NCBI GenBank assembly: GCA_015063235.1
Contig: SUSW01000002.1
Location: 1 to 56,561 of the forward strand
Origin: Thermoplasmata archaeon
Lineage (GTDB): Archaea > Thermoplasmatota > Thermoplasmata > Methanomassiliicoccales > Methanomethylophilaceae
DNA: 56,561 bases
Direction of reading: 5' to 3'
The stretch's first letter is position 1; each line of letters begins with the position of its first letter. The translations under genes were made by a program, and so were the position numbers. Shown one piece after another: positions 4,431 through 51,059 of this stretch. The notes beneath the pieces are model-generated. The model had not been told where the DNA came from, ran no database searches, and worked only from the letters and a program-made list of their open reading frames with translations.

Positions 4431-5347
4431 GCCAGCCGTTCCTGTCCGTGTACGGACATGTCACTGTCGACCAGATAATGACGGTCAGGAAGTTCCCCGC
4501 AGACAACACCACGGAGGATATCGTCACGAAGATGACGACCCTCGGCGGAACGGGAACGAACATAGCTGTCGCAGCTGCCAAGCTGGGCTGTCCTACTGCT
4601 CTCTGTGCCTTCGTCGGGAACGATTTTCCGGGAATGTATGAGAAGCAGATCAGGGAATCCGGGCTGATCATGGATGAGTTCCTGCATGTCGACAAGTACG
4701 AGACGTCCGGAGCGATAGTCGTGAACGACCCCAACATGGTCCAGAAGGTTGTATTCTACCAGGGGCCTCAGGGTTTCGCGGACGACATCGGGATCAGGCT
4801 CACATCCAATGCGAAGAAGTCCAAGTACACCCACTTCTGCACCGGCCAGCCGTCGTATTACATCAGTCTGATGGACGATATCAGAGGAAGCACCAGCATC
4901 GCTATCGATCCGGCACAGGAATCCCACAGGATTTGGAACACGGAATGGTTCACTAAGGCGTTGGAGAGATCGGATTCGCTGTTCTGCAACAATTTCGAGG
5001 CCGAATCCCTGAAGAAGTATGCAGGCGTCGGCGACATCATGGATATCGATCTGGACCTGGTCGTCTGCACGCAAGGTGCCGAAGGCAGCTTGGCGAAGAT
5101 CAATGGTGAGAGGATCGCCATCCCTGCGGTCAAGGCGGACAGGGTCGCCGACCCTACCGGATGCGGCGATACGTACAGGGCGGGATTCTACACCGCGCTC
5201 TGCAAGGGGTTCGACATCCCGGAGGCGCTGACGCTCGCGTCGACCGTTTCATCGTTCGTAGTTCAGGAGACCGGTGCACTTACGAATATTCCAACATGGG
5301 ATATGGTGCTGGAGAGGGCCGAGCCCTATCTGAGAGAGATCGGATGA
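4427..5347 (+). CDS. PfkB-family kinase, likely nucleoside/adenosine kinase
   Basis: A ribokinase-family kinase of 306 residues. The first PfkB signature is near 37-52 (LGGTGTNIAVAAAKLG), and the second is DPTGCGDTYRAGF near 242-254, with the catalytic Asp in GCGD. The product resembles archaeal nucleoside kinases more than sugar kinases, and its place directly after the SAH hydrolase (ATGA overlap at 4427-4430) suggests it phosphorylates the released adenosine or inosine. That role is inferred from context. The frame is open further upstream, but that part is a shadow of ahcY. The stop overlaps the next gene by ATGA. Confidence 0.85.
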   Translation: MSQPFLSVYGHVTVDQIMTVRKFPADNTTEDIVTKMTTLGGTGTNIAVAAAKLGCPTALCAFVGNDFPGMYEKQIRESGLIMDEFLHVDKYETSGAIVVNDPNMVQKVVFYQGPQGFADDIGIRLTSNAKKSKYTHFCTGQPSYYISLMDDIRGSTSIAIDPAQESHRIWNTEWFTKALERSDSLFCNNFEAESLKKYAGVGDIMDIDLDLVVCTQGAEGSLAKINGERIAIPAVKADRVADPTGCGDTYRAGFYTALCKGFDIPEALTLASTVSSFVVQETGALTNIPTWDMVLERAEPYLREIG

Positions 5348-5877
5348 CGCTTTTTGCGATAACCGGCACGCCGGGAACAGGCAAGACATCCGTTTCAGCG
5401 GAGCTCCGCTCCAGAGGATATGATGTCATCGATATGAACGAGCATATCCGTGCCAACGGTTTGCTGGGAGAACTGGACTCCAAGAGGGACACTCACGAGG
5501 TGGATCTCGACGACCTGAACGATTCGCTTCAGAGGTACAGGGATGACGGCAGCCTTCATCTGATGGATTCCCACCTTTCGCATTTCATGGACTGCAGCGG
5601 TATAATCGTACTAAGATGCTCCCCGGAGGTCCTTTACAAGAGGCTGGAGGCCAGAGGCTATGGGAAGGAGAAGATTCTCGAGAATGTGCAATCGGAGGTC
5701 CTGGACGTGATACTCTGCGAGGCCGTCGATTCGGACATACCGGTGTACGAAGTAGACTGCTCTGGAGGAAATGTTGCCGATTCAGCAGACTCCATAGAAG
5801 AAATACTAAAAGGCTGTACTGACAATTACATACCAGGAAAGACCGACTGGTCCCAGGAGATGGAAAGATGGTTCTAG
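5344..5877 (+). CDS. Adenylate kinase 6 / Fap7-type NMP kinase
   Basis: A 177-residue P-loop kinase of the AK6/Fap7 (COG1936-like) type, which phosphorylates AMP and in archaea and eukaryotes also assists small-subunit ribosome maturation. The Walker A is GTPGTGKTS at residues 7-15. VIDMNEHI follows where the NMP-binding region lies, and RCSPEVLYKRLEARGY near 92-107 is the typical lid approach. Start and stop both overlap neighbours: ATGA at 5344 and 10 bases with the phosphotransferase gene. The stop is TAG, rare here. Readthrough would add only about ten residues before a TGA at 5908-5910. Confidence 0.87.
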   Translation: MTLFAITGTPGTGKTSVSAELRSRGYDVIDMNEHIRANGLLGELDSKRDTHEVDLDDLNDSLQRYRDDGSLHLMDSHLSHFMDCSGIIVLRCSPEVLYKRLEARGYGKEKILENVQSEVLDVILCEAVDSDIPVYEVDCSGGNVADSADSIEEILKGCTDNYIPGKTDWSQEMERWF

Positions 5878-6554
5878 ACGGACAGAGAGCGAGGGCGGAC
5901 ATATTTCTGACCCCCGTTGCGAAGAGAATGCTCAATGTCAACCCCAACATCATTTCATGGCTCGGGCTGATTGTTGCGCTCATAAGCGGAGTGATATTCT
6001 ATTTCAGTGGAGCGGACGGTAAAGAATGGCTCCTTCTGGTCGGTGCAGCCGCGGTCATCATCTCCGGATACTTCGATGCCCTTGACGGAAAGATCGCCAA
6101 GCTTGCAGGAAAATGCAGTAAGAAAGGAGATTACCTCGATCACGTCTTCGATAGGTTCGCCGACGTTTTCATGATTGGTGGAATAGCCATATGCGCTTAT
6201 TGGTGCGACCCTCATCTGGGTATGCTGGCTATCATCGGAGTCTTGTTGACATCCTACATGGGGACCCAGGCCCAGGCCATCGGAGCCCCCCGTCTGTATG
6301 CCGGTCTTCTCGGACGTGCCGACAGGGTCGTTCTCTCGACGATATTCCCCATAGTCCAGTATGTTATGATGACATACACAGACTTCGGAAGCTTCACCCT
6401 GGACCTCGGATTCAAGGTATTCGATATTAACTGGCTGGAGATCATGATGCTCTGGTACGCCATTGCAGGAAACTTCACGGCCATTCAGAGGGCTATAGTT
6501 ACCTGGAGAAACCTCAACAAGATGGAAGAGGAAGAGAACCAGAAGAAGGAGTGA
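5868..6554 (+). CDS. CDP-alcohol phosphatidyltransferase (archaeal phospholipid head-group synthase)
   Basis: An integral membrane enzyme that moves a CDP-linked archaeol or alcohol to make polar lipids, probably an archaetidylinositol-phosphate synthase type. The catalytic motif is complete: D70-x2-D73-G-x2-A77-K78-x8-G87-x3-D91-x3-D95, with Lys in place of the usual Arg. About five or six membrane segments follow (near 28-48, 52-68, 102-135, 150-165, 185-205). The C-terminus is an acidic, Lys-ending tail. The ATG overlaps the end of the AK6 gene by 10 bases, so it belongs to the same operon. The exact head group cannot be decided. Confidence 0.82.
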   Translation: MVLDGQRARADIFLTPVAKRMLNVNPNIISWLGLIVALISGVIFYFSGADGKEWLLLVGAAAVIISGYFDALDGKIAKLAGKCSKKGDYLDHVFDRFADVFMIGGIAICAYWCDPHLGMLAIIGVLLTSYMGTQAQAIGAPRLYAGLLGRADRVVLSTIFPIVQYVMMTYTDFGSFTLDLGFKVFDINWLEIMMLWYAIAGNFTAIQRAIVTWRNLNKMEEEENQKKE

Positions 6555-17968: not shown

Positions 17969-19261
17969 TCACCTTACTGCTTCGAAGCCGTTTTTGAGAT
18001 CGTTTATGATATCGTCGATATGTTCCGTTCCTATGGAGAGACGGATGGTATTGGGTTTGATGCCTCCCGCGAGCAACGCTTCCTCATCAAGCTGGGAGTG
18101 TGTTGTGGACGCGGGGTGGATCACCAGAGATTTGACATCCGCTACGTTTGCCAATAGCGAGAACAGTTTCAGAGATTCAGTGAACTTCTTCGCTTTGTCG
18201 GCATTTCCTTTGATCTCGAATGTGAAGATCGATCCCGCGCCGTTGGGGAAGTATCTGTCGTACAGCTCCTTCTTCTTGCCTGTTTCCAGGGAGGGGTGGT
18301 TGACCTTCTCCACTTGAGGATGGTTCTTGAGGAATTCTACTACCTTCAATGCGTTCTCGATGTGGCGCTCCGTACGGAGGGACAGCGTCTCCAGCCCCAG
18401 CAGCAGGAGGAATGAGTTGAAGGGCGATATGCATGCGCCCTGGTCCCTCATGAGCGTGGTGCGGATCTTCACAACGAATGCAGCCTTGCCGACAGCCTCC
18501 GTGAACACAATTCCGTGGTAGGATGGGTTCGGCTTCGAGAGCGTCGGGAACTTGTCGTTCTGTGCCCAGTCGAAGTTGCCGCTGTCGACTATGAGCCCTC
18601 CCATCGCCACTCCGTGCCCGCCGATGAACTTGGTCGCGGAGTGCACCACGATGTCTGCTCCGTGCTCTATCGGCCTGAAGACCGAAGGCGGACTGAACGT
18701 GCTGTCCACTATGAGGGGTATTCCGTTCTCGTGGGCGATCTTGGATATCGCCTCTATGTCCGCGACATCAGAGTTGGGGTTGCCCAGTACCTCTGTGTAG
18801 AGCAGTTTAGTGTTGGGCTTGATGGCCTTCCTGAAGTTCTCGGGATCCGAAGGGTCCACGAATGTGGTCTCTATACCCTGCTCCTTCAGCGTGTTGGCGA
18901 GCAGATTGGCCGTACCGCCGTATATGTTCGTTGATGATACCACATGGTCTCCGGCGAGGGCAATGTTCTGTATTGCGTATGTAATAGCAGCGGAGCCTGA
19001 GGCCGTGGCCAGAGCGGCCACTCCCCCCTCCAATGCCGTAATCCTCTCTTCGAGCACTGACGAGGTGGGATTCATCAGTCTTGTGTAGATGTTTCCGGGT
19101 TCTGTGAGGGCGAAGCGTCCTGCTGCCGTTGCGGAATCTCCGAATACGTAGGATGTGGTCATGTAGATGGGCACAGCACGCGAGTCGGTAGCGGGATCAG
19201 CCTGTTCCTGGCCCGCGTGCACCTGCAAAGTCTCGAGCTTGTACTCATTCAGGTTCGTCAT
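17969..19261 (-). CDS. metY: O-acetylhomoserine sulfhydrylase
   Basis: PLP enzyme of the gamma-family that makes homocysteine from O-acetylhomoserine and sulfide. The 430-residue length and the long insertions relative to MetB are typical of MetY. Visible motifs are YTRLMNPTSSVLEERI, ALATASGSAA, SSTNIYGGT and Lys211 in [11 protein letters not shown], with [10 protein letters not shown] near the C-terminus. The start has a GGTGAAAC site. It heads the metY-cysK-rrf2 operon and diverges from metA, which makes its substrate. The shared 103-base region holds an Rrf2-type palindrome. A paralogue is at 43615. Confidence 0.92.
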   Translation of the reverse strand: MTNLNEYKLETLQVHAGQEQADPATDSRAVPIYMTTSYVFGDSATAAGRFALTEPGNIYTRLMNPTSSVLEERITALEGGVAALATASGSAAITYAIQNIALAGDHVVSSTNIYGGTANLLANTLKEQGIETTFVDPSDPENFRKAIKPNTKLLYTEVLGNPNSDVADIEAISKIAHENGIPLIVDSTFSPPSVFRPIEHGADIVVHSATKFIGGHGVAMGGLIVDSGNFDWAQNDKFPTLSKPNPSYHGIVFTEAVGKAAFVVKIRTTLMRDQGACISPFNSFLLLLGLETLSLRTERHIENALKVVEFLKNHPQVEKVNHPSLETGKKKELYDRYFPNGAGSIFTFEIKGNADKAKKFTESLKLFSLLANVADVKSLVIHPASTTHSQLDEEALLAGGIKPNTIRLSIGTEHIDDIINDLKNGFEAVR

Positions 19262-20297: not shown

Positions 20298-21479
20298 ATG
20301 GAGAAAGTATATCTGGACAACGCAGCGACCTCCCGTATGAGGGAGGGGGTTCTGGAGGCGATGATACCGTATTTCACGGACGAGTATGCGAATCCTTCCA
20401 GCATTCACGCCATGTCCAGGACGCCCAGGGCAGCGGTCAAGAAGGCGAGGGAGCAGATCGCACAGTGTCTGAACGCGGATCCCTCGGAGGTCTTCTTCAC
20501 ATCAGGAGGAACCGAGTCCGACAATTGGGCCCTGATCGGCGGTATGGAGATGCTGGAGAAGAGAGGAAAACACATCATCATATCAACAATCGAGCACCAT
20601 GCTATTCTGGAGACCTCGTACTATCTGGAGAGAAGAGGATTCGAGGTAACGCGTCTCGGAGTCGATTCCGACGGTCTAATAGACCTCGAGAAGCTGAAAG
20701 CGGCCATCAGGCCAGATACCGTGATGATATCCATAATGACGGCGAACAACGAGATAGGTACCATACAGCCGGTTGCTGAGATAGGTGCGCTGGCACACGA
20801 GAAAGGCATAATATTCCATACCGACGCGGTGCAGGCCTTCGGTCACATTCCAATCGATGTGAAGGCGATGAACATCGATATGCTCAGCGCCAGCGGGCAC
20901 AAGTTCGGGGGCCCCAAGGGAGTGGGTTTCCTGTTCGTCAGGAAGGGTATCAGGCTGCCTCCGTTCATGCATGGTGGGGAGCAGGAGGAAGGCAGGCGTG
21001 CCGGAACCACGAACGTCCCCGGAATCGTCGGGATGGGATTGGCAGCGGAGCTTGCCTGCAGGGATATGGAGAAGAATAACGCCCATGTTATCCAGCTGAG
21101 GGACCATCTGATTGACCGCGTCTTGGCGGAGATCCCGTATTCGAGGCTCAACGGCCATAGGACCAAGAGGCTTCCAAGCAATGCCGACTTCAGTTTCCAG
21201 TTCATCGAAGGGGAATCCATGCTGATGAGCCTTGGTATGAAAGGCGTGTACATATCCACCGGATCAGCATGCGCCTCCGGGTCGCTGGATCCTTCCCATG
21301 TCCTTCTTGGGATCGGACTGCCGCATGAGATAGCACACGGTTCGATCAGGGTATCGATCCCAGAGGATACGACGATGGAGCAGATAGATTATGCAGCGGA
21401 CAGCCTCAAGCAGACCGTGGCAACCATGAGGTCGCTGTCGCCGCTGTATGACGACTTCATTAAGAGTAAGGGGGCCTGA
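20298..21479 (+). CDS. iscS: Cysteine desulfurase (IscS/NifS)
   Basis: PLP enzyme that takes sulfur from cysteine as a persulfide for Fe-S assembly and thiolation. The 393 residues have NAATSRMREGVLEAM, the His in STIEHHAILE, Lys202 in SASGHKFGGPKG and the persulfide Cys325 in STGSACASGS. The short SGSLDPSHV loop resembles NifS/IscS group I. AGGAGATGAG precedes the ATG. It is directly followed by iscU (2 bases), forming metA-iscS-iscU, so Fe-S assembly is co-transcribed with methionine synthesis under the same Rrf2 operator. Confidence 0.93.
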   Translation: MEKVYLDNAATSRMREGVLEAMIPYFTDEYANPSSIHAMSRTPRAAVKKAREQIAQCLNADPSEVFFTSGGTESDNWALIGGMEMLEKRGKHIIISTIEHHAILETSYYLERRGFEVTRLGVDSDGLIDLEKLKAAIRPDTVMISIMTANNEIGTIQPVAEIGALAHEKGIIFHTDAVQAFGHIPIDVKAMNIDMLSASGHKFGGPKGVGFLFVRKGIRLPPFMHGGEQEEGRRAGTTNVPGIVGMGLAAELACRDMEKNNAHVIQLRDHLIDRVLAEIPYSRLNGHRTKRLPSNADFSFQFIEGESMLMSLGMKGVYISTGSACASGSLDPSHVLLGIGLPHEIAHGSIRVSIPEDTTMEQIDYAADSLKQTVATMRSLSPLYDDFIKSKGA

Positions 21480-29674: not shown

Positions 29675-31600
29675 TCAGGAATTCTCGGTTTTTACATTCT
29701 TTTTGAACGCCTTTATCGCGGATAGGTCATTGAGTCTCTTCTCAGCTTTCTCATCGACTACGTTGGGATCGAATTTCTTTGTGTAGTAGACGAGTGCTAT
29801 TCCCAAGCCGATGGCGCTTATGAAGTTGATGAAGCATTCTATGTAAACCACATCCATGACGGTCGTTGCGAAGACCGCAATGAGAATGAGTCTCAGTACT
29901 CCGAATCCGAGATAGACCGGTGCGGAGATCTCTGATTTCCTGACAACTTGTAGCATGTTGGTGCACATCCTCTGCAGGAGATAGAACGGGATCACGACAG
30001 CATATATACGGGTGGCCGTTATCAACTCCTCCGATATCGTGGTGTTGCCGTTTCCGAATACTGAGACGATGGGCTCGGTGAAGAAGAGGAGAACGAACGT
30101 AGGTATCAGCGACAGCCCCAGCATGAGTTTGAATGAGTATGTCATGGACGATCTCATCACGGATACGTTGTGTGCTCCTGCCTGAGCGGAGCAGACAGGC
30201 TGGGCTCCTGCCGATATCGAATCAGGGATCATGGTCATGAGATAAGGGAAGGAGAATGCCAGTCCCGTGATGGCCAATGCAGTGGAACCCACGGATACCG
30301 ATACAAGGATGGTATTTGCTAACATGATCACTCCTCCCAGAGCTTCCTCGATGGCCTTGGGTCCGCCTATGGTGAGGATTTCCCGGAGTGCAGAGGATTT
30401 GGGAGTGGTGAATCTGATTTTAAAGTGATATTTACCTTTCCTGAAGAAGTAGAATGAGGCTAGCATCGATGCCACCGACCCTAATGCGGTGGCCGCGGAT
30501 GCCCCCAGCATGCCCCATCCGCAGTAGTTTATGAAGACGGGGGTGAGGATAGCATTGACAGGGACGCTCAGCAGAGCGCACACCGTCATAATCTTCATCG
30601 CTCCCTCCGCTTTGAATAAGCTGCCCAGAACTCCCGACAGGATTATTGCGGGACACCCTATGGCAAGAGGCAGCACATACTGCTTGGCCAGCTCTGTGAT
30701 CTCCGGCCCTTGGACCGAGACTATGGGGTCTATCGAGAGAATGAGGAAGAGCGCTGTGGGGATCGACATAAGGATTGAAAGGAAAAGCGACGCGTTGGCA
30801 AGATCCTGAGATCTGGAATAATCTTTCTTCCCCAACGTGTATGATATGCAGATGCAGGCTCCGGTACCTATTCCTACTCCAATGGCGGCCACTACTGAGT
30901 AGATCGGGGAGACGGTGGATATGGCTGAAACGGCTTCATCGCTGATCTTGGATATCCACATCTTATCCAGGAACGAGTTCACCTTTGTGGCGATGAATGT
31001 CATGCTGACTATGAGCGACATGTATACGATGGCGCGTTTCGGGTCGTTGAGCATCAATTCAAGGGAGGCCTTCTTCTCTTTCTTCTCCCTCTCTTTCTCA
31101 TCCTCGTCTTCTCTGTCTAGTTGCGGTTCGTTTTGCTCTTCATTTTCTTCTTTGGCGATCTTTACCTTTTCTCTGAGCAGATTCAGAAGTTCCGTGTAGT
31201 CTATTTTGCTGAGTTTACCGTAAATTCCGTTCTTAATCAGCCATAGTTTCAGATCGATTTCGTATAACTGTATTGTTATGACTATGCTGTACAGCCACAT
31301 ACTGATGTCAGCTGTAAGTATCACTGCATGGATGAGAGGGATGAATACCGATTCGTTCGTGAGAATGAATTCATGGAATGCTGCCTCCAGTACGTAAAGG
31401 GAGGCGGTAATGAGGAAAATCTTCAGACCCCGTCTGGCTTGTCCGAAGTATATTATTCCCGATCCAGGGATTATGACTGATAGCACGAGGGCTATCAGCC
31501 AGTTCTCTGGGGGTTTTACGACCCTGTCTAAGAAACGTTTCAGAGCATCGTCTGATGATTGACGTTGCTGTACCATCTCTATCGTTTCCTGCAGGATCAA
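29675..31600 (-). CDS. TM2-like domain fused to a MATE-family transporter
   Basis: A 641-residue membrane protein. Residues about 30-125 form a four-segment N-terminal domain with IPGSGIIYFGQARRGLKIFL, resembling TM2-type domains. A highly charged linker (EEQNEPQLDREDEDEKEREK) follows near 155-180. From about 190 to 620 it is a MATE-type exporter with about 12 segments (ISTVSPIYSVVAAIGVGIGTG, PDSISAGAQPVCSAQAGA). MATE proteins expel drugs or metabolites using ion gradients. The extra domain is unusual for the family. Its ATG overlaps the stop of the upstream membrane protein gene by 4 bases. Confidence 0.82.
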   Translation of the reverse strand: MILQETIEMVQQRQSSDDALKRFLDRVVKPPENWLIALVLSVIIPGSGIIYFGQARRGLKIFLITASLYVLEAAFHEFILTNESVFIPLIHAVILTADISMWLYSIVITIQLYEIDLKLWLIKNGIYGKLSKIDYTELLNLLREKVKIAKEENEEQNEPQLDREDEDEKEREKKEKKASLELMLNDPKRAIVYMSLIVSMTFIATKVNSFLDKMWISKISDEAVSAISTVSPIYSVVAAIGVGIGTGACICISYTLGKKDYSRSQDLANASLFLSILMSIPTALFLILSIDPIVSVQGPEITELAKQYVLPLAIGCPAIILSGVLGSLFKAEGAMKIMTVCALLSVPVNAILTPVFINYCGWGMLGASAATALGSVASMLASFYFFRKGKYHFKIRFTTPKSSALREILTIGGPKAIEEALGGVIMLANTILVSVSVGSTALAITGLAFSFPYLMTMIPDSISAGAQPVCSAQAGAHNVSVMRSSMTYSFKLMLGLSLIPTFVLLFFTEPIVSVFGNGNTTISEELITATRIYAVVIPFYLLQRMCTNMLQVVRKSEISAPVYLGFGVLRLILIAVFATTVMDVVYIECFINFISAIGLGIALVYYTKKFDPNVVDEKAEKRLNDLSAIKAFKKNVKTENS

Positions 31601-35732: not shown

Positions 35733-37637
35733 ATGAACGGAAAGGCAGTCTTGTCAACAGCCGTCGTGCTGCTATTCCTGTTATCCTCATCAGCAGTGCT
35801 TACATCCCCTGCTTCAGCGGATCAGGTGACGGATGATACAGGGCTGCCATCTAGTTTCGATCAGAGGGATCTAGGCATCGTCACGCCTCCCAAATACCAA
35901 TATCCCTGGGACACATGCTGGGCGTTCGCGGGTACAGGTTCTGCGGAGACCGCCATCCTGTCAGCAATGGGCAGCACCTATGGAGAAACAGTATTGGATC
36001 TGTCGGAGAGGCACGTCGCATATTTCTCCAACAATTATGTCGATGATCCCATCACTTATACGCAGCAAGGGGAAGGTCTGCATGCGAGGTCCTCCGATCC
36101 CAACGCCCCGTTGGCAGCAGGAGGGGTTCCTTACAGTTACGCTCAATTCTTCTCTACAGGAGTCAGCCCGGTCCCAGAGACTTCTTATCCTTATCAAGGC
36201 AAGAACGGGGAGACGATGAGTCAATTCTATCAGGACCATGACCGTGCGGAGGTGGTGGTCAGGGAGGACAACAAGGATCTGGAGGATCTTATACCGTTCC
36301 TCATGGATGAGGAGAGGGAGAAGCTCTTCGATTCCTGGATAGAGAAAGGGCTTATTTTCCCCGAAGGAGTTGATGCGGAGAATTTCACCTTCGACGATTT
36401 CGTAGAGGCGGATATCGACTACCTGCAGCGTCAGTATCAGGAGCATGATGAGTACTCCGTGTACGATGATTGGAGCATAGTAATCGAAGGACGCAACGGC
36501 ACCACGGTATACACTATGAAGGACGGCAATAGGATGAGGGATCCGTGCAAGACGGAAGGATCGGCATGGATAGGTATCGACGAGGATGCTATGAATGCGA
36601 TCAAATCGGAACTCATGCTAGGGCATGGTCTGTCGATATCATATGGCGCAGGAAACAGAGGATACAACGATGAGTTCGGGACGTACTATCAGACGACCAC
36701 GATCGCCACCCATGCTGTTCAGATAGTAGGTTGGGACGACAGCATCTCCAAGGACAGGTTCGCATATGTCGTGGAGGATCTCAAGTTCATACCTGAGGGC
36801 GACGGAGCATGGCTCTGCAAGAACAGCTGGGGCTCCGAGACCTACGGGTATGATATCGGCGGAAAGACCTACTACAACGATTGGGGCATCAAGGATGAGA
36901 ACGGCAAACACACCGGATACTTCTGGCTGTCATACTATGACAGGTCCCTGAAGTATGTCGAATCTGTATCGTTCTCCGATAAGCTCAGCGGTGAGAACGG
37001 AAGCACATGTTACGTATACGATTTCCTTCCCGACGATAAGAACAGGTATTGCGAATATGGAACTCCTGCATCGATGTCGAACGTGTTCACAGCGGACAGT
37101 GATATGAAGATCACAGGCATCTCGGTAAGCACGCGCGAATACGGTAGCGATGTAAGCGTCAAGGTGTATGCGGATCCGGAATCCGCGAATCCCTCATCAG
37201 GCAAATTGATCTACGATACGGAATACAGCTATCCCTATGCAGGCATACATGTCATCTATCCCGATAAAACGGTCGAGATAAAGAAGGGTCAGAGATTCAG
37301 CGTAGTCTATGAGGAACACACTCCGGAAGGCAGATACGTCTTAGGCGTTAACTCGTATTCCAAAGAAGGGCTCAAGATCTACGGCGTATCAGTGATCAAC
37401 AGGGGAGAGAGCTTCCTGAATCTCGGAGACGGATGGAAGGATCTCGTCGACGAGATGGAGGGACTGGAGATATACGATCCCGGCCTCGCCATGGATAACT
37501 TCAGCATCAAGGTGTTCTCTGCCGATTTCCATTCGGAAGACGAACATCCGGAGTATATGGCGGTGCTGTTCGGGATCATAGCGGTCGGAGCGATCGTACT
37601 GCTTCTTGTCAGAAGACACCGAACAAAATACAGATAA
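35733..37637 (+). CDS. Surface papain-like cysteine peptidase (C1A) with C-terminal anchor
   Basis: A 634-residue exported protease. Residues 1-29 are a signal peptide (VLSTAVVLLFLLSSSAVL...ASA). The catalytic set is readable: Gln56 and Cys62 in YQYPWDTCWAFAGTGSAE, His in ATHAVQIVGWDD (about 329) and Asn in LCKNSWGSE (about 357). From about 420 to 600 there is a beta-rich region of the lectin-like type often attached to archaeal and clostridial C1 peptidases. A C-terminal membrane helix (AVLFGIIAVGAIVLLLV) and Arg/Lys tail anchor it. It probably degrades or modifies extracellular proteins. One of few TAA stops. Confidence 0.87.
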   Translation: MNGKAVLSTAVVLLFLLSSSAVLTSPASADQVTDDTGLPSSFDQRDLGIVTPPKYQYPWDTCWAFAGTGSAETAILSAMGSTYGETVLDLSERHVAYFSNNYVDDPITYTQQGEGLHARSSDPNAPLAAGGVPYSYAQFFSTGVSPVPETSYPYQGKNGETMSQFYQDHDRAEVVVREDNKDLEDLIPFLMDEEREKLFDSWIEKGLIFPEGVDAENFTFDDFVEADIDYLQRQYQEHDEYSVYDDWSIVIEGRNGTTVYTMKDGNRMRDPCKTEGSAWIGIDEDAMNAIKSELMLGHGLSISYGAGNRGYNDEFGTYYQTTTIATHAVQIVGWDDSISKDRFAYVVEDLKFIPEGDGAWLCKNSWGSETYGYDIGGKTYYNDWGIKDENGKHTGYFWLSYYDRSLKYVESVSFSDKLSGENGSTCYVYDFLPDDKNRYCEYGTPASMSNVFTADSDMKITGISVSTREYGSDVSVKVYADPESANPSSGKLIYDTEYSYPYAGIHVIYPDKTVEIKKGQRFSVVYEEHTPEGRYVLGVNSYSKEGLKIYGVSVINRGESFLNLGDGWKDLVDEMEGLEIYDPGLAMDNFSIKVFSADFHSEDEHPEYMAVLFGIIAVGAIVLLLVRRHRTKYR

Positions 37638-37705: not shown

Positions 37706-38314
37706 TCATTCTGCCTTCGGACCTTTATCCTTACCCGTCCTTCTCTTTCTTCTGTGAGGATAGCTTTTCTTCATCAGAGTAAACAACTCACGTCTAGTTT
37801 TCATCGTCGGTGTTTCGAATAAAGCGAAAGCAATCTCGAATACGTCATCATTCTTCAGATACGGGCTGATGAACTCTTCCTTGAACGAGAAGAGACGGTG
37901 CTGACCGTCAATGACATTTATCGTTCCGGCATACTCCTCATATTCATCAGGCTTGTTCGGGATGCATGTATAATATTGGGTGGTCTGAAACACCTGTCCG
38001 TCCTCTGTCGTTACTTTAACAGATTCGCTTTTTACTTCGATCTTCTTCTTGTATCTGTTAGCCTGTTTTGTAGAGATCATAATATTCGACGGAAGAATAC
38101 CTTTCTCTTCGCCGACATATTTTGCTACCTTTTGCAAATGCTTTCCTTTCAAAGGTCTCTGTGCATCCTGGACGTCGCCGACCTTGATATCATCTGTCAG
38201 ATGCACCAGTATTCTCGGGTCGGCCTTTCCTACATAGAATGTCTTTCCATTCTGTGTTATTTTTGTCAACAATACTTTCTGCACTTCGATCCCTCTTATT
38301 GCCTTCTGCAACAT
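37706..38314 (-). CDS. Truncated DGQHR-domain (DndB-like) protein
   Basis: A 202-residue protein with the signature INVIDGQHRLFSFKE and an N-terminal YVGKADPRILVHL/RPLKGKHLQKVAKYV region as in DGQHR/DndB proteins, which associate with DNA phosphorothioation systems and other defence loci. Those proteins are usually well over 300 residues; this one ends shortly after the DGQHR motif in a very basic tail (HRRKRRTGKDKG). No other defence gene is near, so it looks like a remnant or a minimal form. The ATG at 38314 is leaderless (GATATAAC about 29 bases upstream); the frame is open to 38497. Confidence 0.65.
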   Translation of the reverse strand: MLQKAIRGIEVQKVLLTKITQNGKTFYVGKADPRILVHLTDDIKVGDVQDAQRPLKGKHLQKVAKYVGEEKGILPSNIMISTKQANRYKKKIEVKSESVKVTTEDGQVFQTTQYYTCIPNKPDEYEEYAGTINVIDGQHRLFSFKEEFISPYLKNDDVFEIAFALFETPTMKTRRELFTLMKKSYPHRRKRRTGKDKGPKAE

Positions 38315-38439
38315 GCTGATGCTTTGAACTCTTGTGTTCGTTATATCAAGTACAATGCATTTGATAATTGTCCTGCAGTCGTTCAGGAGGTCGAGATAAT
38401 TCATTCTAAGATAACTAAACAGCTGTGAAAAAATACTGT

Positions 38440-39042
38440 TCAGTTCACCATCTTTTTGAATCCGATACTCACACCGTATTTTTCTTTCAATACCCATCTG
38501 AGACCTGTGTTTATCATGCCGTTGGACATGTTGTTTGCATCCTCCAGAGATATGATGTTGCTGGCTAGACAGTTCAGGAACATATGTACGAGACCTGATA
38601 CAATAACGGACAGGGTCTCTGCGGTCTGTGTATTGGGTTCTTCCACATTAATCTGGAGGTCATTGAACATCCTATCCTCGATATAAGAGCGATATCTCAT
38701 AGAGAACTCTGGATCCTTGTATTCCATGACCAATGGGATCAGGAATTTTTCATTCTCGATGAACAGCTCCTGGAAGCGCGGTAAGAACGATTGGAAATCA
38801 CGATCCTCATTGTTACTGGTCTCGAACAGGTCGTGGATCAGATCCATCTGTTTTTGTTTTATGGAATTCAGAACGTCATCGATATCATTGTAATAATAGT
38901 AGAACGTGGAGCGTGTGATATCTGCATTCCTGCAGACATCCTCTATGGTGACTCTCTTTTTCTCCTGTGATATGTACAGTTCCCAAAACGATTCCTGAAT
39001 GCCCATCATCGTTCTGTTTCTTGCTGCTTTGTAGGTCCCCAT
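38440..39042 (-). CDS. TetR-family transcriptional regulator
   Basis: A 200-residue regulator. The N-terminal helix-turn-helix reads KKRVTIEDVCRNADITRSTFYYYYNDIDDVL, the standard TetR pattern, followed by an all-helical ligand domain. GGAGAACAGCAA precedes the ATG. It diverges from the Cys-repeat precursor across 110 AT-rich bases, so it most likely controls that RiPP locus and possibly itself. Ligand unknown. Confidence 0.85.
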   Translation of the reverse strand: MGTYKAARNRTMMGIQESFWELYISQEKKRVTIEDVCRNADITRSTFYYYYNDIDDVLNSIKQKQMDLIHDLFETSNNEDRDFQSFLPRFQELFIENEKFLIPLVMEYKDPEFSMRYRSYIEDRMFNDLQINVEEPNTQTAETLSVIVSGLVHMFLNCLASNIISLEDANNMSNGMINTGLRWVLKEKYGVSIGFKKMVN

Positions 39043-39152
39043 TTGCTGTTCTCCAATTTCTTACATAATGATTGATTTTGTAGTATTTTATTTAAACTGA
39101 ATGATATTACATTAAATATTAAACAAAAAATTCATAGTTCGAGGTCATAAAA

Positions 39153-39323
39153 ATGGCACTTAAGAATCTATTTGGAACGGATTCCCCTTCATCAGCATGC
39201 GGCAGCGCATGCGGATCGGGTGACAAGAAGAGATCCTCTGCATGCGGAAGTGCCTGCGGCTCGGGTGACAAGAAGAGGTCTTCTGCCTGTGGCAGCGCAT
39301 GCGGTTCAGGGGACAAGAAATGA
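39153..39323 (+). CDS. RiPP precursor peptide with three ACGSACGSGDKKR repeats
   Basis: A 56-residue peptide: a 12-residue leader-like start (MALKNLFGTDSP) and three near-identical 15-residue units SSACGSACGSGDKKR (residues 13-27, 28-42, 43-56, the last lacking Arg). Each unit has two Cys spaced by three residues, six in all, ideal for thioether or similar cross-links. KK(R) at each unit end could allow cleavage into three copies. A radical SAM/SPASM enzyme follows 42 bases downstream. GAGGTC lies 6 bases before the ATG, and a TATA-like ATTAAATATT near 39112-39121. I recall a family called ACGX-repeat peptides with a dedicated radical SAM partner, and this fits; I cannot verify it here. Confidence 0.85.
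   Translation: MALKNLFGTDSPSSACGSACGSGDKKRSSACGSACGSGDKKRSSACGSACGSGDKK
39189..39320 (+). repeat. Three tandem 45-base coding repeats in the precursor
   Basis: Units at 39189-39233, 39234-39278 and 39279-39320 (last 42 bases). They differ mainly at third codon positions (e.g. TCATCAGCA, TCCTCTGCA, TCTTCTGCC), so the peptide, not the DNA, is being conserved. Confidence 0.9.
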
Positions 39324-39330
39324 ATCAAAC

Positions 39331-39352
39331 GGCCCTCTGAATCCAGGGGGCC
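39331..39352 (+). terminator. Hairpin between precursor and maturase (partial terminator)
   Basis: GGCCCT pairs with GGGGCC-type sequence (39331-39336 with about 39347-39352) around a 10-base loop, followed by ACTTTTCG. It may stop most transcripts so the precursor is made in excess over the enzyme, a common RiPP arrangement. Confidence 0.5.
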
Positions 39353-39365
39353 ACTTTTCGATATC

Positions 39366-40406
39366 ATGGATTATTTTGCTTTTCAATTGCACATCACCGA
39401 AGCCTGTGATCAGCGTTGCAAACATTGCTACATCTACTCTCTCGGCAGCCATGCCAGATTCACAGAGATGCCCCTGAAGGATATGGTGGCAGTCTTGGAC
39501 AATATCAAGGAATTCTGCAGGAGGGCTAACCGTCTTCCTTATCTGTACATAACCGGCGGAGATCCGATACTTCATCCTGATTTCTGGTCATTGGCGGATA
39601 TTCTGAGGTCCGAAGGGATCCGTTTTGCGATATTGGGCAATCCGTTCCATCTGACCGAAGATGTATGCAGGAGACTGAAAGATTGCGGTTGCTGTAAGTA
39701 TCAGCTCTCCCTCGACGGTCTGAAAGAGACACACGATGAAATCAGACAGCCCGGATCTTACGATTCCACGATGGATGCGATACCGCTTCTGAGAAATGCA
39801 GAGATAGATGTCGCCATCATGACAACGGTCTCCAAATGGAATGTAAAGGAGATTCCTGAACTTATCGACGAGGTCGTTAGGAACAAAGCGGATATCTTTG
39901 CATTTGCCCGTTACTGTCCGTCGTTGATGGATAGGGATACAACCTGCGATCCCATGGAGTACAGGGATATGATGGATAAATGCTGGAAGAAGTTCGAGCA
40001 GTACAAGGATTTGGACACGTATTTCAATCTGAAGGATCACCTCTGGACTTTGTACAGATACGAGATCGGGGATTTCGATCCTAAAGAGTTCCCTGATGAC
40101 GAATATGTGTATGACGGATGCAACTGCGGCAATTCCCATCTTACCATCCTGTCCGATGGTGCCGTATATGCATGCAGGAGGATGGAGAGCAAGGTGGGCA
40201 ATGCCCTGACAGACGATCTGTACGAACTGTTCACAGGACCCAAAATGGATGCATACAGAGTGTACGAGAATTTTGAGAAATGCTCCAAATGCGAGCTGCT
40301 TCGTTTCTGCAGAGGCTGTCCGGCCGTTGCCAAAGGGTATCATGGGAATATGTATGCAGCCGACCCCCAATGCTGGAAGGTGATTCAGATTGATGAGGGC
40401 AGTTAA
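39366..40406 (+). CDS. Radical SAM/SPASM peptide maturase
   Basis: A 346-residue enzyme expected to modify the adjacent Cys-repeat peptide. The SAM cluster motif is Cys14-x3-Cys18-x2-Cys21 (CDQRCKHCY), followed by ITGGDP near 62-67. The C-terminal SPASM region has eight cysteines (252, 254, 270, 306, 309, 315, 318, 336), enough for two auxiliary Fe-S clusters. This layout is that of sactipeptide/ranthipeptide-type maturases, which join Cys sulfur to a carbon of another residue. The exact bond is unknown. No separate RRE domain is evident. It overlaps the next gene by 14 bases. Confidence 0.88.
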   Translation: MDYFAFQLHITEACDQRCKHCYIYSLGSHARFTEMPLKDMVAVLDNIKEFCRRANRLPYLYITGGDPILHPDFWSLADILRSEGIRFAILGNPFHLTEDVCRRLKDCGCCKYQLSLDGLKETHDEIRQPGSYDSTMDAIPLLRNAEIDVAIMTTVSKWNVKEIPELIDEVVRNKADIFAFARYCPSLMDRDTTCDPMEYRDMMDKCWKKFEQYKDLDTYFNLKDHLWTLYRYEIGDFDPKEFPDDEYVYDGCNCGNSHLTILSDGAVYACRRMESKVGNALTDDLYELFTGPKMDAYRVYENFEKCSKCELLRFCRGCPAVAKGYHGNMYAADPQCWKVIQIDEGS

Positions 40407-41343
40407 GATAGACAGGATAACCCCGGCTGAGGATGTGTCGCTGACGGAAGTTCCCATACCTTCAGTACGTCCGGGATGGGTCCTGGTGAAGGTCAAGGCC
40501 TTCGGGATGAACCATTCTGAGAAGATCCTGAGATTAGGGGAGATTGAGGCCGACTATATCTCCAGACCTGTGATCCCTGGTATCGAATGCGTAGGCGAGG
40601 TAGAGGATCCCTCGGATACCGCTCTGAAGAAAGGGGACAGGGTCATCGCGATGATGGGCGGAATGGGACGTAATTTTGACGGTAGCTATGCAGAGTATGC
40701 ATTGCTCCCTATACATCATATCTTCAAAGTGGAGACGGACCTTCCGTGGGATGAATTGGCTTCTATTCCCGAAACCTATCTTACCGCATGGGGATCCCTA
40801 TTCGATTGTTTACAGCTGAAGAAAGGCGAGACCCTGCTGATCCGCGGAGCGACCTGTGCTTTAGGATACGCAGCAATAGATATTGCGAAAGCATTGGGGT
40901 GCAGGGTCATAGGGACGACCCATCGCGAAAGCAAACTCGGGCTTCTGAAAGGAATCGACGAAGCGATCCTGGATGATGAGAATCTTTCCGATAAGGGTCC
41001 GATAGCCGACAAGGTCCTGGACCTTGTAGGCCCCAAGAGTATTCTGGACTCATTACGTACAGTGAAGAAGGGGGGCATTGTATGCGATACGGGAATTCTC
41101 GGCGGTGTTTTCGAACTGAACGGTTTCGACCCTATCAAAGACATCCCTAACGGAGTCTATCTCACCGGATATTTCAGCAACTATCCTACTCAGGAAATGG
41201 TGGATAGCATCTTCCGGTTCATACATGACTACGATCTTCATCCGACCTATGCAAAGCGCTTTGATTTCATGGACATCCGTGATGCCTGCATAGCATTGGA
41301 CGAGGGCAGGACGAACGGAAAGATCGTCGTCGTCATGAACTGA
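40393..41343 (+). CDS. MDR-superfamily quinone oxidoreductase-like protein
   Basis: A 316-residue NADPH-dependent oxidoreductase of the zinc-free medium-chain type. GMNHSEKILRLGEI, PVIPGIECVGEVED and AWGSLFDCLQLKKGETLLIRGAT show the family, with a Rossmann loop variant GATCALGYAAIDIAKALG. It lacks the zinc-binding cysteines. The ATG lies 14 bases inside the end of the maturase gene, so the two are translationally coupled, and a tailoring role on the RiPP is possible. It may also be an unrelated redox enzyme. Confidence 0.82.
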   Translation: MRAVKIDRITPAEDVSLTEVPIPSVRPGWVLVKVKAFGMNHSEKILRLGEIEADYISRPVIPGIECVGEVEDPSDTALKKGDRVIAMMGGMGRNFDGSYAEYALLPIHHIFKVETDLPWDELASIPETYLTAWGSLFDCLQLKKGETLLIRGATCALGYAAIDIAKALGCRVIGTTHRESKLGLLKGIDEAILDDENLSDKGPIADKVLDLVGPKSILDSLRTVKKGGIVCDTGILGGVFELNGFDPIKDIPNGVYLTGYFSNYPTQEMVDSIFRFIHDYDLHPTYAKRFDFMDIRDACIALDEGRTNGKIVVVMN

Positions 41344-42118: not shown

Positions 42119-42970
42119 ATGACAAAAGGAATCTTGGGCTTGATAGCCTGTCCGATGGTTGACGACAATCTGGTCTACAGCCTCAGTAAGGACAGCGAAG
42201 AGAAGAACATAGTGATCATCGACAACGATAACAACACCTCGATCAAGTCCAAACTGGCCAAGGCAGACATCCCATTTTCGATAGTCGCATGGAACGACAT
42301 CCTTTCCCGCAACTACAAGCTGGATGGAGACAGATACACCATCCTGATCTACATGACCAATCTAGGTCTGCATGCGGAACCGGAAAAGCTGAAATCCACC
42401 GTTGAGAACCTTGCCACCGAGATGCAACCGTTCGTCGACGCCATCGGATTCTACCTGGGTACCTGCGGTAACTATGAATGGAGCCCGGCCAGATGGTGCA
42501 AGGAGAAGGGATTCAAGCCGTCCGCCACATTCCACGATTGCAACGGCTGCCTTTGTCATGACTGCGTAGGGATAAACATCGCGGGCGGTCCGAAATACAA
42601 CGAGATGCAGAAGAAGTATGTAGGTTACTTCTACGTATTCCCCGCCATGGCCTCGAACTGGGATGAATTCAACGCCGCGGATTCCAGCAATTCCGCCGCA
42701 ACCGAGGAATCCCTCACTCCGGAGATGAGGGAGGTGTTGGGCATCGAACCAGGGCATGACGGATACATGAGATGGTTGTTCAGTCTCGGAGGATATGAGT
42801 ACATCCTGAAGATCGATACCGGCTTGGGAGATCAGGAACAGTACGAGAAGGATCTCCAGAAGATCTCTGAGAGGATGCGTCTCAAGATTAAGATACCGGA
42901 AGAGAATTGGGCAGACCTCCAGCCAACGAACGATCTCTACAACGAATGTAAATCCTTCCTGCAGGAGTGA
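42119..42970 (+). CDS. DUF1638-like protein
   Basis: A 283-residue protein whose start (GILGLIACPMVDDNLVYSL, then IVIIDNDNNTSIKSKL) resembles DUF1638, a family frequent in methanogens and near corrinoid methyltransferases. A Cys-rich stretch (FHDCNGCLCHDCVG) suggests metal binding. The function is unknown. The start is leaderless, about 27 bases after GTATTAATA. It forms an operon with the Rrf2-type regulator 4 bases downstream. Confidence 0.6.
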   Translation: MTKGILGLIACPMVDDNLVYSLSKDSEEKNIVIIDNDNNTSIKSKLAKADIPFSIVAWNDILSRNYKLDGDRYTILIYMTNLGLHAEPEKLKSTVENLATEMQPFVDAIGFYLGTCGNYEWSPARWCKEKGFKPSATFHDCNGCLCHDCVGINIAGGPKYNEMQKKYVGYFYVFPAMASNWDEFNAADSSNSAATEESLTPEMREVLGIEPGHDGYMRWLFSLGGYEYILKIDTGLGDQEQYEKDLQKISERMRLKIKIPEENWADLQPTNDLYNECKSFLQE

Positions 42971-42974
42971 TGGC

Positions 42975-43472
42975 ATGCACGTAGATTCTGAGTTCACGGT
43001 CGGGATACACATACTGGCCTGCTACGGGATCTTGGCGGATTCAGGAATCACAAGCAGGGAACTAGGGCTCAGCATCGGATGCAACTCTGCGATCGTGCGC
43101 AAGGTCATGGCCAAACTCAACAGAGCTGGGCTTCTGAAGTCGGGGATGGGCAGAGCGCAGACCGTGCTTGGAAGACCTGCGGAGAGCATCACACTGAAGG
43201 ACGTGCTTATAGCTACCGAGGAAGAATCAGCGAGCGATGTGTTCAACATGTATCCTGCTGTGGAGAAGTGCCCTCTGAGCCGCGATTTGCGCAAGGTGTT
43301 GATTCCGTATTTCCAATCAGCTTTCGATGCCATGCTTGGGGAACTTTCGCATGTGACGATAGCCGACATCATGTCCGAATTCCCTAAGGACAAAAGCGAG
43401 TACCCCATCTACGTATTGAAGCAACAGGAGTTGAACCGCAGAGATAATGATGAAGCAAACCATGAGAACTGA
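42975..43472 (+). CDS. Rrf2-family regulator without Cys triad
   Basis: A 165-residue winged-helix protein. HVDSEFTVGIHILACYGIL and NSAIVRKVMAKLNRAGLLKS correspond to Rrf2 helices, and the ALVGRP-type wing reads VLGRPAESITLKDVL. It has a single Cys in the effector region (EKCPLS), as in YwnA-like redox or non-cluster members, so it probably does not carry an Fe-S cluster. It shares a transcript with the DUF1638-like gene and likely regulates it. Confidence 0.75.
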   Translation: MHVDSEFTVGIHILACYGILADSGITSRELGLSIGCNSAIVRKVMAKLNRAGLLKSGMGRAQTVLGRPAESITLKDVLIATEEESASDVFNMYPAVEKCPLSRDLRKVLIPYFQSAFDAMLGELSHVTIADIMSEFPKDKSEYPIYVLKQQELNRRDNDEANHEN

Positions 43473-49880: not shown

Positions 49881-51059
49881 ATGACGAACGAGTACGGTTT
49901 CAGAACCAGAGCAGTACATGTAGGGAACGAGATTGATGAGGGGACAAAGGCCCTCAAGAGGCCCATCAACATGGCAAACAGTTACGAGTTACCTTATGAC
50001 CCCTCATCATTGAACTGGAGCGATGCCGGTTCCAATCTGTATACTCGTAACGGCGGAACCAACCAGAAATATCTTCAAGAGAGACTGGCCTCGTTGGAAG
50101 GTGGAGAGGATTGTATCGTTCTAGCATCAGGAGTATCTGCCCTATCCGCACTTTTCTTCGCCAATCTGAACTCTGGCGATCATATCGTCTTCTCGGACAT
50201 AACCTATATTGCTACATACAGGCTCCTGAATGAACTGTTCAACAACAAGTATGGTGTGGAAACAACCATGGTCGACACTTCCAATCCGGAGAACGTCAGG
50301 AAGGCTTTAAGACCGAACACCAAACTGGTCCATATCGAAACCCCTGGTAACCCCACTCTCAAGATATCGGATATCCGGAAGATTGCCGAGATATGCCATG
50401 CGAACGGTACAAAGCTATCAGTGGACAATACGTTCGCATCGCCTTATAATCAGAGGCCGATAGAACTAGGTGCGGATTTCTGTGTGGAATCATTGACCAA
50501 ATATGTCAACGGACACGGCGATGCAATGGGCGGTGCCATAATAGGGAGGAAATCCGATCTTGACGAGATACGGGCACAGTCGCAGATCAACCTGGGCGGT
50601 GTCATCAGTCCCTTCAACGCTTGGCTGATCATGAGAGGATCCGTTACGCTCCCATTGAGGATGAGGGCACACAACGAGAATGCGATGGAGATCGCAAAGC
50701 ATCTGAAATCCCTTCCCTGTGTCAGCTTCGTCTCCTATCCGGGATTGGATGACGATCCAGGCCACGAGATCGCATCCAGACAGATGTCACCGGGTTACGG
50801 AGGAATGATTTCCTTCGGACTCAAGGCTAACCATGATCAGCACAACGAGTTCGTCAGCCATCTCAAGATCATCGTATCGGCGGTATCCCTCGGACACGAT
50901 GAATCGCTGATTGTCTTCCTGGGGGAGGATGATGAGCGCCAATATCTGTTCGATGACAGGTTTAGCAACGGATTCTTCAGATTTAGTGTAGGTATCGAGG
51001 ATGTCGGGGACTTGATCGAAGACATCGATCAGGCTCTGAAGCAGATCGGCCTTCTTTGA
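49881..51059 (+). CDS. Cys/Met metabolism PLP enzyme (gamma-lyase-like)
   Basis: A 392-residue member of the transsulfuration family, distinct from the three others here. LYTRNGGTNQKYLQERL replaces the usual YxRxxNPT, VLASGVSALSALFF and FSDITYIATYRLL follow, and Lys207 lies in VESLTKYVNGHGD. The C-terminal SLIVFLGEDDER lacks the usual HPASxTH, so substrate choice is likely different (for example another thiol amino acid). In operon with larE, 4 bases apart, suggesting it may free sulfur for that pathway. A GGTGA site precedes the ATG. Confidence 0.85.
   Translation: MTNEYGFRTRAVHVGNEIDEGTKALKRPINMANSYELPYDPSSLNWSDAGSNLYTRNGGTNQKYLQERLASLEGGEDCIVLASGVSALSALFFANLNSGDHIVFSDITYIATYRLLNELFNNKYGVETTMVDTSNPENVRKALRPNTKLVHIETPGNPTLKISDIRKIAEICHANGTKLSVDNTFASPYNQRPIELGADFCVESLTKYVNGHGDAMGGAIIGRKSDLDEIRAQSQINLGGVISPFNAWLIMRGSVTLPLRMRAHNENAMEIAKHLKSLPCVSFVSYPGLDDDPGHEIASRQMSPGYGGMISFGLKANHDQHNEFVSHLKIIVSAVSLGHDESLIVFLGEDDERQYLFDDRFSNGFFRFSVGIEDVGDLIEDIDQALKQIGLL

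Follow-up and report, generated by a model that had tools for sequence, protein, structure and literature searches.

The ACGX locus of a Methanomassiliicoccales methanogen: a tentative case for an intracellular redox or electrophile peptide bearing thiooxazoles

What does a methanogenic archaeon make from a 56-residue peptide whose six cysteines all lie in Ala-Cys-Gly motifs, and what would the product be for? The question is raised by positions 38,440 to 41,343 of a 56,561-nucleotide stretch of DNA (hereafter the window; contig SUSW01000002.1, positions 1 to 56,561, assembly GCA_015063235.1) from a Thermoplasmata archaeon of the order Methanomassiliicoccales, in which such a precursor is followed by a radical SAM/SPASM maturase and by an oxidoreductase of the medium-chain dehydrogenase/reductase (MDR) type. 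An earlier reading made from the letters of this DNA alone (the sequence-only reading) had described the precursor and its repeat units, the CxxxCxxC site and eight SPASM cysteines of the maturase, and the MDR gene, and we find all of them in place. The locus belongs to the ACGX system named in NCBIfam; its gene order is conserved, its peptide is under selection, and redox enzymes are its conserved partners. As to the product, we tentatively propose, with rather less than even confidence, that this system for a ribosomally synthesized and post-translationally modified peptide (RiPP) yields a thiooxazole-bearing peptide that acts inside the cell on oxidants or electrophiles. The features are as follows.

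38440..39042, reverse strand: TetR-like regulator gene, an open reading frame divergent from the precursor operon, with a TetR_N match below cut-off.
39053..39097, no strand assigned: conserved stretch between regulator and precursor, a putative promoter/operator, identical at 44/45 positions in six sequences (a 45-nt stretch chosen from an alignment of 127 columns whose mean identity is 92%).
39153..39323, forward strand: open reading frame of the ACGX-repeat precursor, 56 aa, six Cys, all in Ala-Cys-Gly; TIGR04341.
39153..39188, forward strand: probable leader, MALKNLFGTDSP.
39189..39320, forward strand: core, three SSACGSACGSGDKK(R) units (39189-39233, 39234-39278 and 39279-39320), from the tandem-repeat listing and the comparison of units.
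39366..40406, forward strand: ACGX radical SAM/SPASM maturase, 346 aa; TIGR04340; modeled without an N-terminal RRE domain.
40393..41343, forward strand: MDR oxidoreductase (quinone/enoyl reductase type) with the Pfam domains ADH_N and ADH_zinc_N.

The maturase begins 42 nt after the precursor, and its 3' end is overlapped by 14 nt by the MDR frame, which starts at the ATG at 40393 (the list of open reading frames places the start at a TTG at 40390). Because both proteins exceed the NCBIfam cut-offs, the maturase with TIGR04340 (rSAM_ACGX, 590 bits against 400) and the precursor with TIGR04341 (target_ACGX, 31.5 bits against 28), profile matching makes the locus a member of the ACGX system and not a new kind. 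This bears out the RiPP-type nature that had been proposed for it, and the ACGX-repeat family, with which a comparison had been suggested, proves to be the correct one. A literature search on ACGX, TIGR04340 and TIGR04341, by which subscription papers were mostly not covered, found no paper on the system; no description of it stood among the matches listed for RiPPs or radical SAM enzymes of Methanobrevibacter and Methanomassiliicoccales, and the ACG motif was not found in the available parts of PMC10352776 and PMC9062424. As far as found, the family has a name without any described product or role.

The precursor consists of MALKNLFGTDSP followed by three SSACGSACGSGDKKR units, the third of which ends at DKK. 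Its repeat is the top-scoring tandem repeat listed for the window, and the ACG-x-ACG pattern, searched in the DNA of the 1.78-Mb assembly, occurs three times, each time within the precursor gene (the reversed pattern, as control, 0 times). In the comparison of the units 10 of 39 nucleotides differ, all at third-codon positions, and none of the three pairwise comparisons contains a nonsynonymous change; this synonymous-only divergence indicates that the peptide is under selection, as the sequence-only reading had argued. The near-identity of the stretch upstream of the precursor, together with a GAGGT ribosome-site motif that is likewise kept, agrees with expression of the gene.

Among 60 genomes, namely the window's own and 59 relatives, the maturase exceeds its cut-off in nine, with two copies in one of them (G012). 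In another genome of this order, which is more remote and lacks a strong MDR match, the ACGX maturase has an internal TAA (G040:C11:3371-4395) and is perhaps decaying. A scan of named genomes returned at least 481 relatives, of which the best 80 are 56-93% identical, and 82 loci (80 named and two on viral contigs) were compared. Frames that resemble a precursor and carry two or more motifs are present in 76 of the 82; with the remaining loci read individually (a short precursor in L031, one broken by an N run in L060, a tail in L061), the precursor or its tail lies upstream of the maturase in 79 of 81 assessable loci, L086 with 47 nt of upstream DNA being left out. No precursor was found upstream in L026, whose close kin L028 has one, or in L104. 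The latter is a 504-kb viral contig whose ACGX-like maturase (5001-6017) is 51% identical in the alignment, sits on a long branch and has no precursor nearby. Since the precursor adjoins the maturase in relatives, the doubt attached to the original proposal, that the pair might fail to be conserved beyond this genome, does not apply. In a sample of 398 genomes, drawn from the phylum to which Sporomusa silvacetica (G065) belongs, the maturase occurs in nine, one of them the sample centre G065 itself, picked for having the system, and all nine also have the precursor. The placed relatives belong to Thermoplasmatota, Methanobacteriota, Bacillota, Bacteroidota, Mycoplasmatota and Spirochaetota, many of them from gut or rumen samples. 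In the 80-row tree the window's row and the four of Thermoplasmatota fall into a 22-row set (support 100/100) whose other members are Bacillota (12), Bacteroidota (4) and Mycoplasmatota (1), a mixture that fits transfer between bacteria and archaea without proving it.

The chemistry was approached through the maturase, which has the radical SAM site C14-X3-C18-X2-C21 and eight C-terminal cysteines (252, 254, 270, 306, 309, 315, 318 and 336), all invariant in 58 aligned rows. The best NCBIfam profile outside its own family is that of SbtM, the thio(seleno)oxazole maturase of Geobacter lovleyi (TIGR04082, 189.7 bits; the likeness is judged by profile), followed by TIGR04053 with 122 and heme b synthase with 119 bits. 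The SbtM profile matches 58/58 aligned ACGX rows, with a best E of 2e-61; the profiles of heme b synthase and PapB reach 6.9e-44 and 1.1e-21, respectively. The profiles of thioether maturases reach 60.9 bits (PapB, NF047865, cut-off 340), 60.6 bits (SkfB, TIGR04403, cut-off 300) and 62.7 bits (StsB, NF045574, cut-off 625), each cut-off being missed, and on the last two a sactipeptide was rejected. Scored with the SbtM profile, the ACGX proteins of 15 other genomes reach 171-209 bits, and further matches at E<=1e-20 occur once each in three of these genomes, at 77-88 bits; three of 14 named control genomes have such a match, none above cut-off. Among the 60 relatives only ACGX proteins pass 1e-30. 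No protein over the SbtM cut-off was found in these 60 or in the 15 genomes reached through the loci, and no match at E<=1e-70 in 199 genomes of the phylum of G065.

According to the part of PMC11002830 available, SbtM takes four hydrogens from Cys or Sec peptides to give a thiooxazole. Because SbtM is the nearest family outside ACGX and its product is a thiooxazole, the preferred reading of the profiles is that Ala-Cys-Gly would be oxidised to 5-thiooxazoles with loss of four hydrogens per cysteine, as a first choice and not as a proof. Heterocycles also occur in the Lys-Cys-Gly motifs of a copper-binding peptide made by an MNIO enzyme, where thiooxazole and oxazolone-thioamide are debated (PMC12538549, in the part available). 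Several points weigh against the thiooxazole: the window maturase remains below the SbtM cut-off of 350 bits; the match covers positions 199-505 of 516, so that the N-terminal positions 1-198 of the profile are missing; and an acidic residue three to four places after most unit-final cysteines keeps a thioether alive. Selenocysteine in the ACG motifs was rejected: an Ala-Sec-Gly pattern with TGA, searched within 1.2 kb upstream of the 82 maturases, gave five matches, none of them, by reading, in the repeat frame of a precursor.

That thioether is the main rival. It would be ranthipeptide-like, the last cysteine of a CGxxCGxGD unit being joined, as by PapB, to a side-chain carbon of the Asp/Glu 3-4 residues on, with the first cysteine free or metal-bound. 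We consider it unlikely on the whole, yet serious enough to be weighed in full. In 86 precursors, which have between 2 and 11 Cys-Gly sites each, 475 of 478 core cysteines precede a glycine, and the residue before these 475 is Ala in 428 and Ser in 37. Among them 177 open a CG..CG pair and 298 do not; an acidic residue stands at +4 after 214 of the 298 and at +3 or +4 after 270, the spacing that the proposed link requires. PapB acts on CX3D/E motifs and also accepts CXnD with n=0-6 (PMC9413430, as far as its available text goes), and its profile, too, matches 58/58 rows. On the other side, the 177 first-of-pair cysteines lack such a partner, the +4 position of some units is taken by Ser, Ala or Lys, and the PapB score is far below that of SbtM. 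The sulfur-to-carbon link that the sequence-only reading had taken as the default is weakly supported by the profiles, with the CX2-3[DE] pattern leaving room for a PapB-like thioether. We note that the precursors of Methanobrevibacter (L057, L059, L083, L092) consist largely of ACGSDINT/ACGSDVTAS repeats, in which the acidic residue lies at +3 and not at +4.

Structure does not arbitrate between these chemistries. The closest solved structures to the AlphaFold model of the maturase (pLDDT 86.7, pTM 0.87) are anSME (23.9) and CteB (23.1), which are tied, then ChlB (22.9) and SuiB (22.7); that CteB lies no farther off than anSME suits the thioether, and for this tie we rejected the fold as a criterion of chemistry. 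A slight hint comes from the start of the SPASM region, where Cys-X-Cys 252/254 is invariant in the 58 rows and CteB and SkfB have a single cysteine. The available portion of PMC8326336 describes an open iron site in CteB and SkfB, absent from SuiB, PqqE and anSME; the ACGX Cys-X-Cys might fill this site, which would speak faintly against a thioether. This counting of cysteines gives only a hint because SuiB also has one cysteine at that place and CteB has a further one close by. In the same order, long SPASM proteins (L011-L015) that score 52-142 bits per piece with the ACGX profile also start their SPASM region with one cysteine, not Cys-X-Cys.

What the product would do is best approached through the neighbors. 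A strong MDR match (E<=1e-50) is present in 9/9 genomes with the maturase and in 0/51 without it (Fisher 7e-11, ignoring kinship), and MDR genes adjoin ACGX maturases in bacteria and Methanobrevibacter as well. By this co-occurrence the MDR gene is a real partner of the system, which answers in part the question of its role that the sequence-only reading had left standing. Redox genes lie near the maturase in 62 of 74 assessable loci (MDR 37, PNPOx-ferredoxin 24, nitroreductase 17) and none in the other 12. Of the 68 loci for which 1.4 kb or more of upstream DNA was available, HxlR regulators occur in 38, TetR-type in five and neither in 25. Tallies of the 25 commonest Pfam families among downstream and upstream neighbors agree with these counts. 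By reading, 44/46 proteins of the HxlR cluster have an early Cys-Pro (a stricter pattern took 31), and HxlR/DUF24 regulators sense quinones, diamide, HOCl or aldehydes, according to the accessible text of PMC6943732. For the window's own regulator the divergent gene described earlier is real, and its assignment to TetR is weak: the TetR_N domain reaches 20.2 bits where Pfam asks for 24, and even the closest NCBIfam model stays far below its cut-off. Taken from gene neighborhoods, the redox partners suggest an intracellular thiol peptide for redox or electrophile stress, perhaps also a new substrate of SirTM-type sirtuins (see below).

The same neighbors bear on whether the peptide handles copper or another metal, the modified product then serving as a metallophore or as a buffer in the manner of the thiooxazole bufferins and fontiphorin. 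MNIO-made thiooxazole peptides are described as metallophores or as copper-binding in the parts available of PMC12668002, PMC12538549 and PMC12452194, and six clustered thiols would bind soft metals. We hold this role doubtful, as no metal transporter or sensor family is among the 25 commonest neighbor families of 51, 42 and 88, and the recurrent neighbors are redox enzymes and regulators of the thiol-stress type. More improbable still is an anSME-like maturase that would carry out a two-electron oxidation of cysteine to a thioaldehyde or formylglycine, its profile reaching 57 bits where that of SbtM reaches 190. The KKR at which the sequence-only reading had the peptide cut occurs in 3/86 precursors, those of the window and two close kin, and is also present in the same-genus genomes of L002-L005, the wider family being without it. 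Despite these basic residues between the units, an exported antimicrobial or signal released as repeated units is the least credible of the readings, and an exported bacteriocin of this kind was rejected as a general one for want of KKR elsewhere. Genes for transport or for peptidases, too, are seldom met in the neighbor families listed (ABC_transp_aux 3/62 upstream proteins; BPD_transp_1 2/79 and Peptidase_M20 1/79 other neighbors; none among the 25 commonest families for 122 downstream proteins; an ABC-ATPase-like cluster, by reading, in 6/82 loci).

With the thiooxazole as the preferred product, the following course is conceivable. The regulator would release the operon upon redox or electrophile stress. 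The maturase would bind the short leader without an RRE of its own: because the radical SAM core opens the model, from residue 3, with CteB (5why) aligning from its residue 91 on, the enzyme is predicted to lack a fused N-terminal RRE; a motif L[KSR]N like that of the window's leader recurs in 34/86 precursors. It would then abstract a hydrogen atom from the beta carbon of every Ala-Cys-Gly cysteine, and the alanine carbonyl oxygen would be closed onto that carbon, with four hydrogens removed in all, as SbtM does on one Cys or Sec. The result would be a row of 5-thiooxazoles, lighter by about 4 Da per cysteine and by about 24 Da for the whole peptide. Kept in the cell, this multi-thiol peptide might react with, or carry electrons to, oxidants, quinones or aldehydes, and perhaps metal ions too; the MDR enzyme (elsewhere a nitroreductase or a flavin-ferredoxin protein) could turn over the product or the trapped compound.

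A further association was observed outside the window genome, in which no SirTM match was found. Within the available flanks, 22 of the 82 loci have a SirTM-type sirtuin, a macrodomain or both (10 both, 10 sirtuin only, 2 macrodomain only); one such sirtuin matches PDB 5a3a at 8e-64, and one macrodomain exceeds the protein-ADP-ribose hydrolase cut-off (NF003163, 347/272 bits). In the 398-genome sample ACGX occurs in nine genomes, a SirTM match in 15 and both in five, in four of which they are separated by 1-3 kb (Fisher 4e-6, or 6e-5 without the centre genome; the SirTM query was taken from an ACGX locus and may favor such kin). SirTM systems are tied to oxidative stress and work with oxidoreductases (PMC4518038, in the part available); lipoyl-GcvH-L is the only known SirTM target, those of other SirTM/Zn-macrodomain pairs being unknown, according to the available part of PMC11490716. 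GcvH is absent from the families matched by at least two of 79 other neighbor proteins, and no literature joining SirTM with radical SAM enzymes was found. Because of the co-occurrence with SirTM and macrodomain genes and of the targets lacking for other pairs, one may speculate, by analogy and at long range, that ACGX peptides are poly-thiooxazole or otherwise Cys-modified redox handles within the cell, a peptide counterpart of lipoyl-GcvH-L, which in bacteria with SirTM and macrodomain in the operon would be reversibly ADP-ribosylated on the Asp/Glu of CGxGD or on sulfur and so switched off and on. They would then be the missing substrate of the SirTM/Zn-macrodomain pairs without GcvH-L, and the methanogen would keep a simpler form with the MDR enzyme and a TetR-like switch. 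We regard this extension as rather unlikely.

Other genes of the window include several for sulfur amino acids at 17969-19261, 20298-21479 and 49881-51059 (O-acetylhomoserine sulfhydrylase, a NifS cysteine desulfurase, and a cystathionine gamma-synthase/lyase relative). Adjoining the locus, 35733-37637 encodes a 634-aa protein with a papain-family peptidase and lectin-like domains, which by these domains looks like a surface protein, and 37706-38497, directly after the TetR-like gene, a DGQHR/DndB-like protein just below the TIGR03187 cut-off. At 42119-43472 a DUF1638 protein is followed after 4 nt by an Rrf2-type regulator, and residues 200-565 of a 641-aa protein at 29675-31600 match MATE efflux transporters.

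The ACGX system occurs in archaea of gut and rumen, in Bacteroidota, Bacillota and further groups, with a name and with no product or role found for it; in place of the default guess of a thioether and of an antimicrobial we propose a specific and testable one, thiooxazoles that a standalone radical SAM enzyme would make in an anaerobe. MNIO enzymes use oxygen, and the ACGX route to thiooxazoles, if true, avoids theirs. Further, the ACGX operon offers a candidate for the substrate of SirTM/Zn-macrodomain pairs outside the GcvH-L operon, which the available text of PMC11490716 leaves open.

Set beside known systems, the window locus shows no difference from the ACGX system: both proteins are above the curated cut-offs, adjacent and in the same order. 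ACGX loci of other organisms share with the SirTM/Zn-macrodomain operon of lipoyl-GcvH-L (PMC4518038 and PMC11490716, from the parts available) a SirTM or macrodomain gene beside oxidoreductases; unlike those operons, the window genome lacks a SirTM match and GcvH is not among the recurrent ACGX neighbor families. PapB resembles the ACGX maturase in being a SPASM enzyme acting on a peptide with many cysteines in CX3D-like spacing, and differs by its low profile score and by the half-units of ACGX that have no acidic partner. From SbtM, finally, the ACGX maturase differs by the absence of about 198 N-terminal positions, by peptides in which no Sec codon was found and by the many cysteines that each peptide offers, whereas by profile SbtM is its nearest other family and likewise acts on the cysteine of a small peptide.

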